Shown: in pieces, positions 172 to 17,818 of the stretch
Layout of the letters: every line of letters starts with the position of its first letter
Numbering within the stretch: position 1 is the first letter of the stretch
Source of the DNA: a virus
IMG/VR virus record: IMGVR_UViG_3300032605_000119
Location: 1-26,407 of that record
Reading direction: 5' to 3' (one strand)
Length of the DNA: 26,407 bases
Notes under the pieces: model-generated
What the model was told of the DNA's origin: nothing
Databases searched by the model: none
What the model saw: only the letters and a program-made list of their open reading frames with translations
Made by a program: the position numbers and the translations under genes

Positions 172-906
172 TTACTTTACTATTCTCCAACCTTTAGCAT
201 GACTATATTTTCCGTTGATAACTTGGCTGATATTACTTTTTAGCTCAGGATACCGCAAGGTTATTTCTAATCTAGTCGCAGTTAAATGCTCTCCGGTAAT
301 AATATTCTCCCAAAGATAAACCGTGTCTATGTACCTAGGATTCTTTTTTCCTGTTGGCTTTGAATCCGGATTATCCTTATAGAAAGTTTTTCTACCATTA
401 CTATAGTTGACATGCATCTGTTCTGTAATCACTCTACTAGCAGATGATAGCCTTTGTATTTCTTTGGTTTCATCAGTATGTTTATGGCCGTAGAAAGGAT
501 TATCTTTGCCTTTGTGTTTCTCACTCATATACTTGCTATGTAGTAAGGCCGCTTCTGCTCGGATTGCAGCTATCTCGGGTATTAGGTTATCCCTTATTAT
601 TCTTTGTTGTGTTTTACTTTGTGGATTTGCCATACGAACAGCAGCTAGCGACATCTTTCTAATGTTCTGTTCTTCACTAACCATTTTGGGCAACAACAGG
701 TGAACTTTTAAGTGTTCTTCCGCAGTTAACCACACTAGGTTAGATTGTTCATCCGTTCCTCCCATTGATTTAGGTATTATGTGATGACGCTCTGTGTAAG
801 TTAGTATATTCTTTGCTTCTTTTCTAGAGGCGGATTGCGGAACTCTTACTATGGCAGGATTGACAATAGCATAATATTGATCAGTGAAGTTGTTTTCCAA
901 ATACAT
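172..906 (-). CDS. HNH homing endonuclease with NUMOD3 and C-terminal DNA-binding repeat
   Basis: This 244-aa protein has a clear HNH nuclease core at about residues 38-70: ERHHIIPKSMGG, then SNLVWLTAEEH and KVHL, which provide the paired His (41-42), the Asn and the downstream His residues. A NUMOD3-type motif (GKDNPFYGHKHTDETK) follows at about 133-150. The C-terminal 50 residues (TVYLWENIITGEHLTATRLE onward) look like a NUMOD1/IENR1 helix-turn-helix DNA-binding segment. The family makes site-specific double-strand breaks that drive copying of the gene into alleles lacking it. It sits alone between a terminator and the next gene, with its own late promoter and an AAAGGA ribosome site, as expected for a freestanding mobile gene. 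I see no intron or intein. Confidence 0.9.
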   Translation of the reverse strand: MYLENNFTDQYYAIVNPAIVRVPQSASRKEAKNILTYTERHHIIPKSMGGTDEQSNLVWLTAEEHLKVHLLLPKMVSEEQNIRKMSLAAVRMANPQSKTQQRIIRDNLIPEIAAIRAEAALLHSKYMSEKHKGKDNPFYGHKHTDETKEIQRLSSASRVITEQMHVNYSNGRKTFYKDNPDSKPTGKKNPRYIDTVYLWENIITGEHLTATRLEITLRYPELKSNISQVINGKYSHAKGWRIVK

Positions 907-2070: not shown

Positions 2071-5000
2071 TTATTTTTCTTCTAGATAATCGTTGTTTTG
2101 AGATATATTAGTGTTTGATTGGGCATTTTTTTTCATGCCAATAATTGCCTCTATATTTGGCAAAGATGTTTCAAACTTTAATGCCAATAATGTTTGTACC
2201 TTATTATACGAGTCTGCTTTATTAAACAACAACGTCACTGTAGTTAGATTACCAACGGATCTACTAAGAGGATAAGTTTCTTTTTGACCTGAGTTTCTTT
2301 GGGCAGTACATGTGCCATTATCTTTGCTCAGTAATGTTACTACCTCAGGTGCATGTGCAGGAGACACATGATCATTGATCAATACCAACGGTACAAGAAT
2401 ACATTTTTTATTAAGTTTAACATTATCAGACATGTTTACTAATGATTTGAAATAAGAATCTATTTCAGGATCATTTGCTTCTGTTAGCACCGTATTTCTA
2501 GTAAAAAATGCCTCTGTTATCCTAAGTCTAGTATCCATGTCTTCAATGTAGTTGTAGTCAGACCAATCAAAAGTGGTCTCGTTTATCTTTTGTTTTTTTA
2601 TCCAATTATCCGGAATCATATGATGCTTCTTCACGAAATCATTGTGTAACTTATCACCAGTAAGATGGTATTCTTTGCAGACGACTTGCATCATCTTGTC
2701 TATCTTATCGTAATCAAGTTTTATGCCGCGTTCTTTGGCTTTCAATAATGCTTTCTCTAGCATTTCTACTGCCCCTGGCTTTTCCTTACCAGTGACATGC
2801 GTAGGTTTCATATCACCTTCGTTTATACGAGAAGCGAAAAGTTCTTCATACGGGTATATAGTAGCGATATCTTTTGCTAGTGCTTTGTCTAACTTAGCAT
2901 TAGGTAGGTCACCTGCTTTGAGTTTTCTAGCACCCGTCGCATTAGCCATCTCATTTTTATTGAAACGGCTTATTATGGCTTTCAATGAACTGGCAGGTCC
3001 GTCAAAATCGTGATAGACTCCGTTTTTTTCAACCACTGCATGTTGTGCTATGTTGTTTTTATCAACAAGAACAACAATATTTCCTCCTATACGATTTTTA
3101 ATGACTTCAGCCGCAGTTAGACATCCACCATCAAATGGACCTGAGTCAAGATGATTAATGAATAGTTCATATATTTTGTCTTTGTCATATTTGGGTTTTA
3201 CAGCAGCTTCGCTGAGTTGCTTTGATGCTTGATTGAACATACGAATAAGAGGTATCTTTTCATCAACCGAGATAGATTCAGAAACAATGAGTGGCTGAAT
3301 ACGCTGTATGAATTCTTTTAGTTTACGACCTTTTGGCTTTGGAGCGTGAAACTGCGTGAGATTTTCTTTTGCCACACGCATCATATGTAATACTTCTTCA
3401 TCGCTGATTTTAGGACTGATTGCTTGTCTCCAGACGGCAAATTGTTCTTCTTTAGTTGCGTTCGGATTCATTAATATCTCGCGCATGGGTGTTGCTCTAG
3501 GTCCTTCATGATAGTCAGGACTTTCTGTATCGCTTCCGGGAGCCTTCGTATCTTGTCTGCTCATTATAGTCAAGCTATCTAATCCGAATTTTTTATAGGG
3601 TTCTGTACCTGATTTATCAGGGCGGGTGAGATAACCAAATGCTTCTTTCTGATCAGCACCAACTACAAGCGTCACGTCAGTATATCCATTAGAAGCTAAT
3701 GCAGCTAATTCATCGTTTAGATTAGTTTTAAGTTGAAACATATCCGCATATTTAGGGAATTTCTTCCTATAAAGTTCCAACTTCATTTCAGGTGGAATAG
3801 GATCATCTTTACCGAAACTGCGTGATATGATAAAGAACGGTGTCGCATTAGTCTTTATTGCCTGATGCAATACTGCGATGACAAGAGCATCATGTCCGGT
3901 GTGTCCCATGCCACGACCCCAGCCTACTACGGCTGATTTACCTTGCTGTGCTTCAGTTATAGCTGTACCTGTATTAAGTACTGATTCCTTAGGAGACCAA
4001 TTCTTTTGGTCAATTGTCTTTATGAATTGTCCAGGGATATCATAGTCAAATTTTGCGCCAGGGTGTGCTTGTGCATATCCTTCTGGCTTAGTCTGCTTGA
4101 TTCCACCATGTAATCCTTGACTCAACTCGTCAATCAATAGTTTCTTATGAATACCAAGGGCTTCTATCGCACCTAGCGTCGTTTTTAACCCTTCTTTATC
4201 AGAGAGTAAAGTCTCTGCTTTTTTCGCACTTAGATTTGACTTAGCCCAATCTGGAAAATCATTTACCAATCCCTCAGTGCGTAGATGTTTGTTTAGATAT
4301 GAATATAGTTCTCTACCTGGATTGCTCATACCTGGCTTAGGAGCAAGATAGTCGTCAATCTTTTTTGCATTAGTCTTGATGAATGCTTCTAGCCTATCTA
4401 ATCCTTTTTGATCTACTTTTACTGGATCCTGCACATAAGTCGTGCCCTGAACAATCACATCCGGTGTACTCAAACTTGCTGCATCTGGATAACGCTGCTC
4501 ATCGGATGATCCTAATGTGGGGAAATATCCTGTAGCAGCTACCATTACCTTTGCCTTAGCAATTCTCTTGCCTAGCTCGCTATCTGCTGGTACATGGAAT
4601 GTCGTGATATTAGGAGTAAAGTCGTAAGTATTAGTCTCTTTAGTATATATAGGCATAGCAGACACACCGTCTGGTTTAGTGCCTGGGTAGAATAACAACC
4701 CGCCTTCTATATATCCTTGCTTAGGACTAATCTGTTCAAAATAAGGCCATAGACTAGCAAACTGTTTAGCGAACACTTCTCTCGCTTTTGGATCTCCGCT
4801 ACCGGTACCTAACACAAATGATTTCACATCATTCGGGTTTCTCATGACTGTAGGGGCACCTGACGATGTTTGTGTTTTTCCGCTCTTTAGATATGCCCAT
4901 GCATTTTTAGGAATCATGCTGAAGTTACCTGCTTCATCACGACCCCAATATACCACTGGCATACCGTCCCATTTGAGTTCTATAGTTCCGCCTTGCTCAG

Positions 5001-7099: not shown

Positions 7100-7288
7100 T
7101 TATGATTTGAGTTCTTTACGAGCGTTCTTAGTGTCAGTGATTTCACTGCGACGGGCCTTGCATAACTTAGCAAGATCGCCTAATGCCTTGCGGGCACGGG
7201 TGCCCGCTGCTGCATTGCCCTTCTCAAACTTCTCATTCTCAGCAATGAATGCTTCAAATTGTGCCTTGATATTGATTGTAGTTTCCAT
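7100..7288 (-). CDS. Histone H1-like Hc1-family protein
   Basis: A 62-aa, Lys/Arg/Ala-rich protein. The segment GNAAAGTRARKALGDLAKLC followed by KARRSEITDTKNARKE matches what I remember of the conserved N-terminal domain of the Hc1 (chlamydial histone H1-like) family, pattern AGTRxRKxLxxLxKLxxxxRxEI. Hc1 proteins bind and condense DNA. In a phage it could help compact phage DNA or remodel the host nucleoid; which of these is not shown. It lacks the long Lys-rich tail of chlamydial Hc1, so it is a domain-only form. GATAAATA lies 23 bases upstream, and the gene is followed after 4 bases by the glycosyltransferase-like gene. Confidence 0.65.
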   Translation of the reverse strand: METTINIKAQFEAFIAENEKFEKGNAAAGTRARKALGDLAKLCKARRSEITDTKNARKELKS

Positions 7289-7311
7289 ATTTTTTCTTTC
7301 TTAGATATGTA

Positions 7312-7319
7312 TATTTATC
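7312..7319 (-). promoter_or_regulatory. T4-type late promoter of the Hc1-like gene (GATAAATA)
   Basis: GATAAATA on the minus strand, 23 bases before the ATG at 7288. It forms one arm of a palindrome with the plus-strand copy at 7327-7334. Confidence 0.6.
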
Positions 7320-7326
7320 ATTAATT

Positions 7327-7334
7327 GATAAATA
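7327..7334 (+). promoter_or_regulatory. T4-type late promoter of the GIY-YIG gene (GATAAATA)
   Basis: GATAAATA on the plus strand, followed 4 bases later by the TGTAGTTC leader shared with the second GIY-YIG gene. Confidence 0.6.
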
Positions 7335-7338
7335 AAAG

Positions 7339-7395
7339 TGTAGTTCACGGTGGTGGAACACCTAACTACTCTAACGCTTTAGAGGAGCATCAGCT
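7339..7395 (+). promoter_or_regulatory. Conserved GIY-YIG leader: hairpin and strong SD
   Basis: The leader contains a two-part stem: GTAGTT (7340-7345) with AACTAC (7364-7369), and GGTG (7349-7352) with CACC (7359-7362). Then come CTAACGCT and the ribosome site GAGGAG, 8 bases before the ATG. Nearly the same leader stands before the second GIY-YIG gene (14369-14426). The stems are unchanged while the loop differs, which suggests a kept RNA structure. Confidence 0.65.
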
Positions 7396-7929
7396 ATGAA
7401 TATTTATCACTATCCAACCCACCCCTTAGGATTCTATGTATACGCATATTTGCGTACCGAAGGCACTCCTTATTATATAGGGAAAGGCAAAGGCAGACGA
7501 TGGAAACACAGCAAAAGAGAACGATATCAAACTCCTAGCGATTTGTCAAGAATAATAATCCTAGAGCATAACCTTACTGAAATAGGTGCATTAGCTATTG
7601 AGCGAAGAATGATCAGATGGTACGGTAGGAAAGACATAGGTACCGGTATCTTACATAATCGTACTGATGGCGGAGATGGCATCGCTGGTCTGAAACAAAC
7701 ACCGGAGCATATTCAAAAACGTAGCATTAGTAGAACAGGTAAATCTAATGGAAGGCGTACTCCTGAATTCAAAGAGCAGCAGCGCATACGAGCATTAGCA
7801 AGACCTCCGGCAAGTGCAGAAACTAATGCTAAGAAAGGCGCTAACCGAAAGGGAAAACCCCTTTCGGAAGAGCATAAGAGAAATATGTCATTAGCTAGAT
7901 TAGGAAAAAAGTATCCAAGAAATCAATAG
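7396..7929 (+). CDS. GIY-YIG homing endonuclease with NUMOD3 repeats
   Basis: A 177-aa protein. The nuclease core has [20 protein letters not shown] (about 12-31), a GIY-YIG variant (FYVYAYL / [10 protein letters not shown]), and [10 protein letters not shown] supplying the family's Arg/Glu region; RTDGGDG ends the core. Two basic NUMOD3-like segments follow ([16 protein letters not shown] and [20 protein letters not shown]), which bind DNA in phage homing endonucleases. It is one of the few plus-strand genes, and its last 7 bases overlap the 3' end of the minus-strand gene at 7923, consistent with a later insertion. It should be expressed late from GATAAATA at 7327. Confidence 0.9.
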
Positions 7930-13597: not shown

Positions 13598-14359
13598 GTG
13601 GCTAAGCACTTAAGAAAAGAAACACGACCAAGAAGATATGTAGATGAAAGCAAGATGTTTTATATGAAAGAATCAAAAACTATTGACTTTAATCAATCCC
13701 AACCTAAAAGACCCAGAAAACCAATCGAACTAATACCTCAGAGTATAAATCAGGAAAAATATATCATCGCATTGACCGACCCTGAAACAGATATCGTAAT
13801 GGTCTCAGGTCCTGCGGGAACAGGGAAAACATATCTTGCTATGTTAGCAGCCATAAAAGCAATGAAACAAGGAGATTGTGAAAAGATATTACTAACAAGA
13901 CCAGCAATTAGTATTGAATCTGAAAATCATGGATTTCTTCCTGGAAATTTAAATTCAAAACTAGAACCTTGGGTCAAACCATTAATGGATGTAATAAAGG
14001 AATATTATTCTTCAACTGAGATAGAATATTTTCTTAAAGAAGAAATAATAGAATTTGCTCCATTAGGGATGATGCGCGGAAGAACATTTAAAAAAACTTG
14101 GTTAATAGCAGACGAAATGCAAAATGCTACTCCTAACATGTTTAAAATGTTGCTTACACGCATAGGTGAAAATAGTAAAATAATACTTACCGGTGATACT
14201 GATCAGGCCGACCGATCAAATGGTCTAAATGGTTTATTGGATTTAAAGAATAAACTTAACTCTAGTGAGGTTCCTGGTATGATTAAGTGTGAATTTACTA
14301 CCAAAGATATTAAACGTCACGCTATAATTGAACATATTTTAAAATTATATGATAAATAG
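13598..14359 (+). CDS. phoH: PhoH-like P-loop ATPase
   Basis: A 253-aa protein. Walker A is GPAGTGKT (71-78) and Walker B is WLIADEMQN (168-176), with LLTRPA (98-103), FLPGNLNSKLEPW (113-125) and ILTGDTDQ (196-203), all hallmarks of the PhoH family. These are ATPases or putative RNA helicases that are widespread in marine phages; their role in infection is unsettled. The start codon is GTG, with AGGAGA 9 bases upstream. It lies on the plus strand between minus-strand blocks and looks more AT-rich than its neighbours. The stop codon overlaps the late promoter of the endonuclease gene behind it, so the two may have travelled together. Confidence 0.92.
   Translation: MAKHLRKETRPRRYVDESKMFYMKESKTIDFNQSQPKRPRKPIELIPQSINQEKYIIALTDPETDIVMVSGPAGTGKTYLAMLAAIKAMKQGDCEKILLTRPAISIESENHGFLPGNLNSKLEPWVKPLMDVIKEYYSSTEIEYFLKEEIIEFAPLGMMRGRTFKKTWLIADEMQNATPNMFKMLLTRIGENSKIILTGDTDQADRSNGLNGLLDLKNKLNSSEVPGMIKCEFTTKDIKRHAIIEHILKLYDK
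14351..14358 (+). promoter_or_regulatory. T4-type late promoter of the second GIY-YIG gene (GATAAATA)
   Basis: GATAAATA on the plus strand, lying inside the last three codons of phoH (GAT AAA TAG). Ten bases later the shared TGTAGTTC leader starts. Confidence 0.6.
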
Positions 14360-14368
14360 ATACTGAAA

Positions 14369-14426
14369 TGTAGTTCGCGGTGCTGGTCCCACCCAACTAC
14401 TCTAACGCTATAAAGGAGCAATCAGC
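14369..14426 (+). promoter_or_regulatory. Conserved GIY-YIG leader, second copy
   Basis: Same layout as 7339-7395: stems GTAGTT (14370-14375)/AACTAC (14395-14400) and GGTG (14379-14382)/CACC (14390-14393), then TCTAACGCT, AAAGGAG and ATG. Most bases outside the loop are identical to the first copy although the proteins that follow differ. Confidence 0.65.
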
Positions 14427-15067
14427 ATGACTATTTATCTGTATCTCAAAACTCACAACAAAACAGGACTAAAATACCTAGGAAAAACTATCCAAAATCC
14501 CTACAAATACCAGGGATCCGGTGAGTACTGGATACCACATATTAAGAAACACGGGTATGACGTAACTACTAAAATCCTTAAGGAATGCGGGACTACAGAA
14601 GAACTTAAAGAATGGGGCCTGTATTATAGTAAACTATGGAATATAGTAGATGAGCGTGATGAGAATGGCAAAAAACTTGGGCTAATTTAAAATCCGAAGA
14701 GGGAGACGGATTTGCCTCAGGGGTATATAATCCAGCAGCACATAGAAATTTGTTTGGTACTAATAATCCCATGTTCGGTAGGTCAGCAGTAAAAGATTTA
14801 GATCTCCATTGGTATACAAACGGCAAAGACAATGTTTACGTTTCTCCGAATGATGTACCATTAAATTATTATCCCGGCAGACACATCCCTAGTAATTATG
14901 GGAGAATTAAAGAAAGACCTTGTATTGATCCTAAGGGAAAAATTTTTAATAGTATTTTTTCTGCTGCAAAAGAATACAAAATTTCTCATTATGCAATAAG
15001 AGAGCGTATTAGGAGAAGCGAGAGAAATATTTCTGGTAATAAAAAATCAGGATGGAAATACTTATAA
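14427..15067 (+). pseudogene. GIY-YIG homing endonuclease broken by a 1-base frameshift
   Basis: The first part (14427-14690) encodes a GIY-YIG core (IYLYLKTHNKTGLKYLGKT, 3-21) and breaks off at DENGKKLGLI. One extra A in the run of six at 14670-14675 would instead read DENGKKTWANLKSEEGDGFA and join in frame to NLFGTNNPMFGRS (a NUMOD3 motif), HWYTNGKDNVYV, and a C-terminal IENR1/NUMOD1 segment (CIDPKGKIFNSIFSAAKEYK) ending at 15067. The TWANL..E.GDG stretch is the normal end of such nuclease cores, so the restored frame is surely ancestral. The break is either a real loss, a slippage site, or a homopolymer error in the assembly. The gene carries the same leader as the intact copy at 7396. Confidence 0.85.
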
Positions 15068-17289: not shown

Positions 17290-17430
17290 TTAATATTCTT
17301 TGTCTGTCATTGTATAGTCGTTTACTTTTTCTTCGCTAATTAATAAAATATCATTCGGGTCTACCTTACGGATGATTTTCTCGCCTTCGTCGTTATGACT
17401 CCGGAGACCGTGTTTTACAATTAGTATCGC
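17290..17430 (-). pseudogene. Duplicated, decayed 3' fragment of groES
   Basis: Positions 17290-17393 repeat the last 104 bases of groES (17456-17559): about 84 bases are identical, and the final six codons differ only at third positions (both read MTDKEY and stop). Beyond that, 17394-17430 still aligns loosely with groES (GCGAT, CACGG, GGAGTC in order) but with gaps and a broken frame. The fragment has no start and ends at the terminator at 17259, so it is likely the older allele's tail, displaced by an insertion. Confidence 0.7.
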
Positions 17431-17455: not shown

Positions 17456-17818
17456 TTAGTATTCCTTATCGGTCATTGTATAGTCGTTTACTTTTTCTTC
17501 GCTAATTAATAAAATATCATTCGGGTCTACCTTACGGATGATTTTCTCGCCTTCGTCGTCTTCAATGGTCTGACCACGACTCCATCTTCCGTGTCCAATC
17601 ATAATATAATCGCCTACTTTTACATCCTCTACTTCAGGTCCTACAGCATAGACTCTCGCCCATCTCGGTCGGATGCCTGCACTCTTCATGTCATCATCTA
17701 GGAGAATAAGTCCTCCGCGACTCAGACGTTCTTTAAACTCCATATCGCAAACAAGGATAGTATCCTTCAGTGGACGGAGGTTAGAAACTTGTGTTCGGGT
17801 AAGATTAACTTTTGTCAT
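17456..17818 (-). CDS. groES: GroES-like cochaperonin (gp31 counterpart)
   Basis: A 120-aa protein. LRPLKDTILVCD (14-25) is the usual GroES opening (xxPLxDxxxV). RGGLILL (34-40) sits in the mobile loop where GroES has GGIVL, the tripeptide that docks on GroEL. ARVYAVGPEVEDVKVGDYIM (54-73) is the core barrel, and DPNDILLI (98-105) matches the closing strand. T4 replaces host GroES with gp31 so that GroEL can fold the large capsid protein; this gene may do the same. It has a C-terminal extension (EEKVNDYTMTDKEY) and its 3' end is duplicated downstream. It follows the 133-aa gene after 2 bases and has no strong SD. Confidence 0.85.
   Translation of the reverse strand: MTKVNLTRTQVSNLRPLKDTILVCDMEFKERLSRGGLILLDDDMKSAGIRPRWARVYAVGPEVEDVKVGDYIMIGHGRWSRGQTIEDDEGEKIIRKVDPNDILLISEEKVNDYTMTDKEY

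Follow-up and report, generated by a model that had tools for sequence, protein, structure and literature searches.

What do two almost identical leaders do in front of two endonuclease genes that are only distantly alike, and on which strand do they act? The window (26,407 nucleotides of a viral genome, IMG/VR record IMGVR_UViG_3300032605_000119, positions 1 to 26,407) contains such a pair, each before a GIY-YIG start. An earlier note, made from the letters alone, had described the pair and proposed a regulatory RNA, a protein-binding site or a part of a mobile element. We found that the leader belongs to a large family of structured elements in phages, many of them T4-like and uncultured, and that the structure is strongly indicated to be kept on the strand opposite the endonuclease gene.

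The two leaders of the window

The near-identical leaders noted earlier were present in the sequence at 7340-7395 and 14370-14426 (repeat family D8), and their likeness is far beyond chance. The distance from GATAAATA to the leader is 5 and 11 nt, which corrects the 4 and 10 given before. The two proteins behind the leaders match different PHROG families. When the window was scanned with a covariance model whose sequences came mostly from other phages, only the two leaders matched (3.5e-23 and 9.4e-20).

In copy 1, GTAGTT (7340-7345) is followed by C-A-C, GGTG/CACC, T and AACTAC (7364-7369); in copy 2, GTAGTT (14370-14375) is followed by C-G-C, GGTG/CACC, C and AACTAC (14395-14400). These stems had been seen in the earlier note, which overlooked a third one (GCY...RGC) around the Shine-Dalgarno sequence, and also TATTTAT just 3' of the ATG. 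The Shine-Dalgarno GGAG falls inside the structured span of both copies (7384-7387 and 14415-14418). The features of the locus are listed in Table 1. On the antisense strand, copy 2 has a hairpin A with a common extra nucleotide, UAGA at 14404-14401 and a hairpin B.

Table 1. Positions of predicted and observed features around the two leaders; remarks give the basis or context.
Feature	Position	Strand	Remark
Sense late promoter GATAAATA, endonuclease gene 1	7327..7334	+	5-nt spacer, predicted +1 at G7340
Putative antisense structured RNA, copy 1	7340..7394	-	Model R2 74.4 bits, E 2.6e-19
Copy 1, predicted antisense 5' end GCUG	7394-7391	-	Model R2 and mismatch polarity
Copy 1, hairpin A AUGCU..AGCGU	7390-7386 with 7378-7374	-	Encloses anti-Shine-Dalgarno loop
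Copy 1, linker UAGA	7373-7370	-	Between hairpins A and B
Copy 1, hairpin B outer stem	7369-7364 with 7345-7340	-	Then G bulge, R-Y pair 7363/7347
Copy 1, hairpin B inner stem	7362-7359 with 7352-7349	-	Second G bulge before inner stem
Pyrimidine-rich tail ACTTTTATTTAT, 3' of hairpin B	7328..7339	-	Consensus of 299 copies; possible 3' end/terminator
Antisense late promoter GATAAATA (TATTTATC on +), copy 1	7401..7408	-	Within codons 2-5 of endonuclease gene 1
Endonuclease gene 1	7396..7929	+	seg-like, 177 aa, GTPYYIGKG motif, weak NUMOD3
Sense late promoter GATAAATA, endonuclease gene 2	14351..14358	+	11-nt spacer; overlaps phoH end
Putative antisense structured RNA, copy 2	14370..14426	-	Model R2 57.1 bits, E 1.5e-14
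Antisense late promoter GATAAATA, copy 2	14432..14439	-	5-nt spacer, predicted +1 = 14426
Endonuclease gene 2, 5' part	14427..14690	+	GIY-YIG, YLKTHNKTGLKYLGKT type; frameshifted, rest at 14750-15067
Inserted element 1, approximate ends	7302..7929		Absent in L543-L545, where two genes adjoin
Inserted element 2, approximate ends	14351..15067		Late promoter through endonuclease stop codon
Extra late promoter GATAAATA for displaced neighbour, insert-borne	7312..7319	-	Neighbour Hc1-like, 7100-7288

Endonuclease gene 2 (14427-15067) is frameshifted near 14680, leaving an 87-aa ORF, yet neither its RNA element nor its antisense promoter is damaged. The window has one more endonuclease gene (172-906, minus strand), which encodes an HNH/NUMOD3 enzyme and has a ATGTATTTGG start and a late promoter; the covariance search of the window found no structured element there, and it forms a natural control. 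Elsewhere in the window, a 104-nt direct repeat (96%) was found at 17290-17393 and 17456-17559, a partial duplication around the point where a GroES-like gene ends.

Size and distribution of the RNA family

Pattern and covariance searches across phage genomes, the latter proposed in the earlier note, returned a large family with compensatory stems. At least 305 distinct copies were found among IMG/VR phages after combining patterns from parts of the leader, and stem-blind patterns alone recovered hundreds of IMG/VR homologues. Whole-record model searches revealed up to 13 copies per phage. In 12 IMG/VR and 4 cultured-phage records, the number of copies found with a promoter-free model of the core equalled that of the full model, record by record, apart from a chance hit in T4; orphan copies without promoters were rejected for these records.

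Against Rfam 15, searched on both strands, only sub-threshold matches were obtained and none at or above the gathering threshold, so a known ribozyme or riboswitch was rejected. The RNA family is previously unlisted, being in no library searched. Presence in bacterial genomes was also rejected, as the 8 pattern matches in 257 Gb of GTDB contigs are about the chance expectation. The blastn search of the copy-1 leader against 50,697 cultured phage records gave partial chance-level matches only. Fifteen cultured phages, T4 among them and most picked on account of endonuclease homologues, were scanned whole, and two of them contain the element: Variovorax phage V45v66 (1e-13) and Pseudoalteromonas phage XG4 (1e-7), the XG4 copy lying directly 5' of an endonuclease homologue. 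T4 is without it, the 17.5-bit match inside b-gt being a chance one. The TATTTAT promoter is absent from the V45v66 and XG4 copies, so in these phages the element would need a different promoter or a different role.

Compensatory changes in three stems

P1, the outer stem of 6 bp, keeps its pairing although as many as 38 different 3' arms occur. Among 204 stem-blind copies, selected only on TAAATA, TCTA, CAGC and TATTTA, six Watson-Crick pairs were found in 179 and mostly five in the remainder. The same covariation was seen in P2 (4 bp) and in P3, whose 5 bp enclose the Shine-Dalgarno sequence; the 100% P1/P2 pairing of one tally is partly a product of selection. The earlier note had counted a lack of compensatory stem changes against its own reading, and we found massive compensatory changes in the three stems. 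By APC-corrected mutual information only P1, P2, P3 and an internal R-Y pair were found, and a pseudoknot or extra helices were rejected.

The unpaired bases (GCUG, UAGA and two bulged Gs, as read on the antisense strand) are invariant in unrelated sequence contexts, while stem and loop sequences vary between copies. A YUNR loop motif is overrepresented in the P2 loops of the sense strand and the P3 loops of the antisense strand, and is not decisive.

Mismatch polarity and the structured strand

Mismatches, read on the sense strand, were counted in 200 copies that were not stem-selected at the start and were then required to have at least 8 of 10 pairs Watson-Crick, GT or AC, a filter that treats GT and AC alike. 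No G.T and 59 A.C were counted in P1, the R-Y pair and the first three pairs of P2 (P2.1-3); P3 had one G.T against 148 A.C. The 305-copy set, for which stem criteria were used in selection with GT and AC let in equally, gave 0 G.T versus 98 A.C for P1, R-Y and P2.1-3. The R-Y pair is G-C, A-C or A-T and never G-T, and over half of the copies have C-A at pair 2 of P3. At P2.4 the picture is mixed, and this position is probably under no pairing constraint. An A.C mismatch on the sense strand is a G.U wobble on the antisense strand, so it is the antisense-strand pairing on which selection acts.

Folding agrees with this polarity. For the same 51 sequences, 97.7% of paired cells were satisfied on the antisense strand (99.8% in hairpin B) and 91.8% on the sense strand. 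The minimum free energies were -16.9 (antisense) versus -12.8 kcal/mol (sense), with antisense better in 271/299, and the probability of hairpin A was 0.89 versus 0.54. For copy 1 of the window alone, the antisense minimum free energy fold differs from the consensus. Covariance-model bits were discarded as a strand test, since sense and antisense scores are equal, as is expected for trained models. Taken from the sequences, the case for the antisense strand is strong. The earlier note, overlooking the strand polarity of the mismatches, was at the right place and probably on the wrong strand: its regulatory RNA is supported, and its hairpin in a sense 5' leader is opposed by the A.C polarity, the folding energies and a second late promoter.

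A late-promoter sequence inside the endonuclease gene

Shortly after its start codon the ORF carries TATTTAT, which reads ATAAATA on the other strand and is the second promoter. Of 195 stem-selected copies, 132 have TATTTA at a distance of 5 nt on the 3' side of CAGC, and as the phase of the ATG differs, it is read in three frames (MTIY, MYL, MIFI). TATTTAT was found in about 90% of leader ORFs and in 2.9% of 1363 other ORFs; the leader-ORF set was chosen partly on TATTTAT, and the level is the same in the stem-selected set (195 copies). In 19 copies the sense promoter is absent or out of place, and 17 of these have the antisense promoter intact.

The T4 late TATA box is located at -13..-6 (PMC2988020). 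A T4-type late box (TATAAATA-like, -13..-6) was recognised on both strands here, with TAAATA and most often a 5-nt spacer. With the T4 box spacing, the antisense RNA would start at the G of GCUG (at about 7394/7395 in copy 1) and the sense RNA, in most copies, at the invariant G of P1.

One subgroup (L164, L304, L308, L312 and L356) has P1 of the form GTCCTT/GTCCCT and retains the antisense TATTTAT; it has no TAAATA before the sense start and often GTCAACAAAAAT instead.

Pairing between TAAATA and TATTTAT in a read-through mRNA, following the logic of I-TevI, was rejected, as covariation is absent from the outer flanks (p 0.7-0.8); a weak deviation is confined to the +1/-1 pair (33% vs 25%).

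Association with endonucleases and mobility

In the whole-record model search, which is independent of ORFs, an endonuclease-like ORF lies behind 96/98 copies. ORFs of at least 100 aa were found behind 277 of the 305 copies, the remainder being mostly cut by contig ends or frameshifted. The enzymes include several GIY-YIG types (one SegE-like), HNH, HNH_3, TnsA-like and MTES_1575/Vsr-like ones, and DNA-binding-only NUMOD3/I-TevI proteins also occur behind the element. Unrelated nuclease families share one portable, probably regulatory cassette; the question whether the leader always stands beside GIY-YIG genes is answered by a nearly constant endonuclease-like partner that is not only GIY-YIG.

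Insert 1 is composed of a neighbour promoter, the sense promoter, the putative antisense RNA gene and the endonuclease ORF. At the empty site corresponding to insert 2, in L479, the phoH stop directly abuts GGTAAACGGGGC. As the empty sites of related phages are without the element, the RNA element comes and goes with the endonuclease gene. The idea that the leader is part of a mobile element is borne out to this extent, and we found no evidence that it is recognised during mobility.

Several observations were made on the inserted genes and their sites. The promoter in insert 1 (7302-7320) would serve a downstream neighbour cut off from its preceding gene, and an extra minus-strand TAAATA was found at 47 of 173 divergent loci, where shuffling gives 23 expected. 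This neighbour (7100-7288, minus strand) is a phage-encoded 62-aa histone H1-like Hc1 protein (PF07432, 3e-15). A like endonuclease with a divergent leader is located at the same phoH 3' end in L490, L491, L493, L494 and L496 (~3757-3839), the leader of L490 scoring 63.8 bits with a mismatch in P1, which suggests repeated homing to this site. The leader also precedes homing-type ORFs with a TnsA-like endonuclease domain (PF08722; L151:4037-4597 and L156:1725-2660), candidates for unusual freestanding homing endonucleases, and a 532-aa ORF (L353:1718-3313, minus strand) with DUF7487 and a REase_MTES_1575/Vsr-like domain.

Proposed function and alternatives

We consider it probable, from the sequence evidence, that the conserved leader is a late antisense RNA restraining translation of the endonuclease. 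A small-RNA gene would lie on the strand opposite the endonuclease, and the late polymerase would start at ATAAATA within the first codons, giving an RNA of about 55-65 nt late in infection. From its 5' end this RNA would comprise GCUG, a 5-bp hairpin with an anti-Shine-Dalgarno loop, UAGA, a second hairpin in which two Gs are bulged, and a tail rich in pyrimidines. Transcription of the endonuclease mRNA would begin at the opposite end, from its own late promoter; with such convergent starts, the antisense RNA would be complementary to the entire 5' leader of the mRNA and its ribosome-binding site. Most likely it would pair with the mRNA, loops first, and hold endonuclease synthesis low, much as IS10 transposase is kept down by RNA-OUT. 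We infer transcription and the 3' end from the sequence, and repression of translation by analogy with known antisense RNAs. A simple terminator scan called none at the pyrimidine-rich tail after hairpin B. Simple antisense pairing would not need the invariant GCUG, UAGA and bulged Gs, which point to a possible protein partner. P2 loops are identical in <1% of same-genome copy pairs, and cross-genome pairs are equally dissimilar; the difference within genomes is at most compatible with cognate specificity.

The antisense RNA might also be real and have its main job in trans, as a late small RNA or a protein-binding RNA, which we think rather unlikely. Its possible routes are the CUCCUU loop acting against other Shine-Dalgarno sequences, or the bulged-G hairpin; the bases that stay invariant amid unrelated contexts, where stems and loops differ between copies, and the many copies in one genome would suit such a role. 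However, the element is hardly ever alone, nearly all model-found copies (96/98) being at an endonuclease start, and the anti-Shine-Dalgarno loop follows from the gene's own Shine-Dalgarno sequence. A more far-reaching version, in which up to 13 late antisense RNAs with a shared protein partner silence resident and incoming endonucleases in trans, is speculative and in our judgement doubtful.

It is improbable that the hairpins belong to the endonuclease mRNA and control its translation as a sense 5' leader, by hiding the ribosome-binding site, stabilising the mRNA or binding a ligand or protein. The element does start at the sense +1, hold the Shine-Dalgarno sequence and end at the ATG, P1 and P2 fold on the sense strand too, and RNA structures sequestering the ribosome-binding site are known for T4 homing endonucleases (PMC2988022). 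But A.C is accepted and G.T excluded, P3 pairing on the sense side is often interrupted, the outer flanks of TAAATA and TATTTA do not covary, and TATTTAT after the ATG is left unexplained.

A promoter and stabilising 5' leader for a divergent neighbour, offsetting the insertion, was rejected as very improbable: the upstream neighbour is divergent in 175/278 cases, and insert 7302-7929 split two minus-strand genes, but the neighbour is codirectional with the endonuclease in 103 cases, the element is kept equally there (antisense promoter 0.96 and G.T 0 in both orientation groups), and insert 1 has a separate promoter for its neighbour. Bottom-strand ssDNA hairpins used in mobility or recombination are scarcely credible: the element moves with the gene, and ssDNA systems such as attC have covarying hairpins with extrahelical bases, but this reading leaves the promoter spacing conserved at both ends unaccounted for, the differing endonuclease families make a shared DNA-recognition role unlikely, and no recombinase or HUH enzyme was noticed alongside, without a systematic search.

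Comparison with known systems and significance

Antisense control of mobile elements is already known. RNA-OUT of IS10 is a 69-nt cis-encoded antisense RNA to the transposase mRNA RNA-IN, over the translation start region (PMC5006887). The proposed late antisense RNA resembles RNA-OUT of IS10/Tn10 in having a nuclease gene of a mobile element, convergent promoters and a short RNA over the translation start region. Marks of RNA-OUT found here are a structure on the opposite strand, as read from sequence, its own outward promoter, in about 90% of copies, and a span that covers the Shine-Dalgarno sequence in both copies of the window. Unlike RNA-OUT, it has two hairpins, phage late promoters, no known sequence relation and hundreds of alleles before unrelated nucleases, and its repression would be by analogy.

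FinP of the F-like plasmids, the antisense RNA to traJ, has two stem-loops and a short linker, is complementary to the leader containing the ribosome-binding site, and regulates conjugation together with FinO. The phage element appears alike in its two stem-loops, its short linker and its complementarity to such a leader. It differs in that FinP is a plasmid conjugation regulator working with FinO, and we have no evidence of a chaperone here.

T4 I-TevI, segB and Aeh1 mobE have hairpins that sequester the ribosome-binding site (PMC2988022, PMC3014915). Common to these and the phage element is post-transcriptional control, proposed in our case, of a homing endonuclease around a late promoter. 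In I-TevI, segB and mobE it is the sense mRNA that forms the structure, and with I-TevI only read-through transcripts do so. The 5' arm in I-TevI and mobE is upstream of the late start, whereas here both stems are downstream of the predicted +1 and pairing is kept on the other strand.

The reading of wobble polarity shifts the finding from a sense leader to the opposite strand. We found no report of antisense control of homing endonucleases in open-access papers, and as far as found, no such control had been put forward for freestanding homing endonucleases before. According to a review of post-transcriptional control in T4, no small trans-acting RNA of T4 has been functionally characterised, and related genomes may suggest small-RNA candidates (PMC3014915). 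The element offers a numerous and testable family of such candidates, for which strand, start site and target can be named. If the trans network were true, it would be a multicopy-inhibition system for selfish genes, with one portable cassette per gene.
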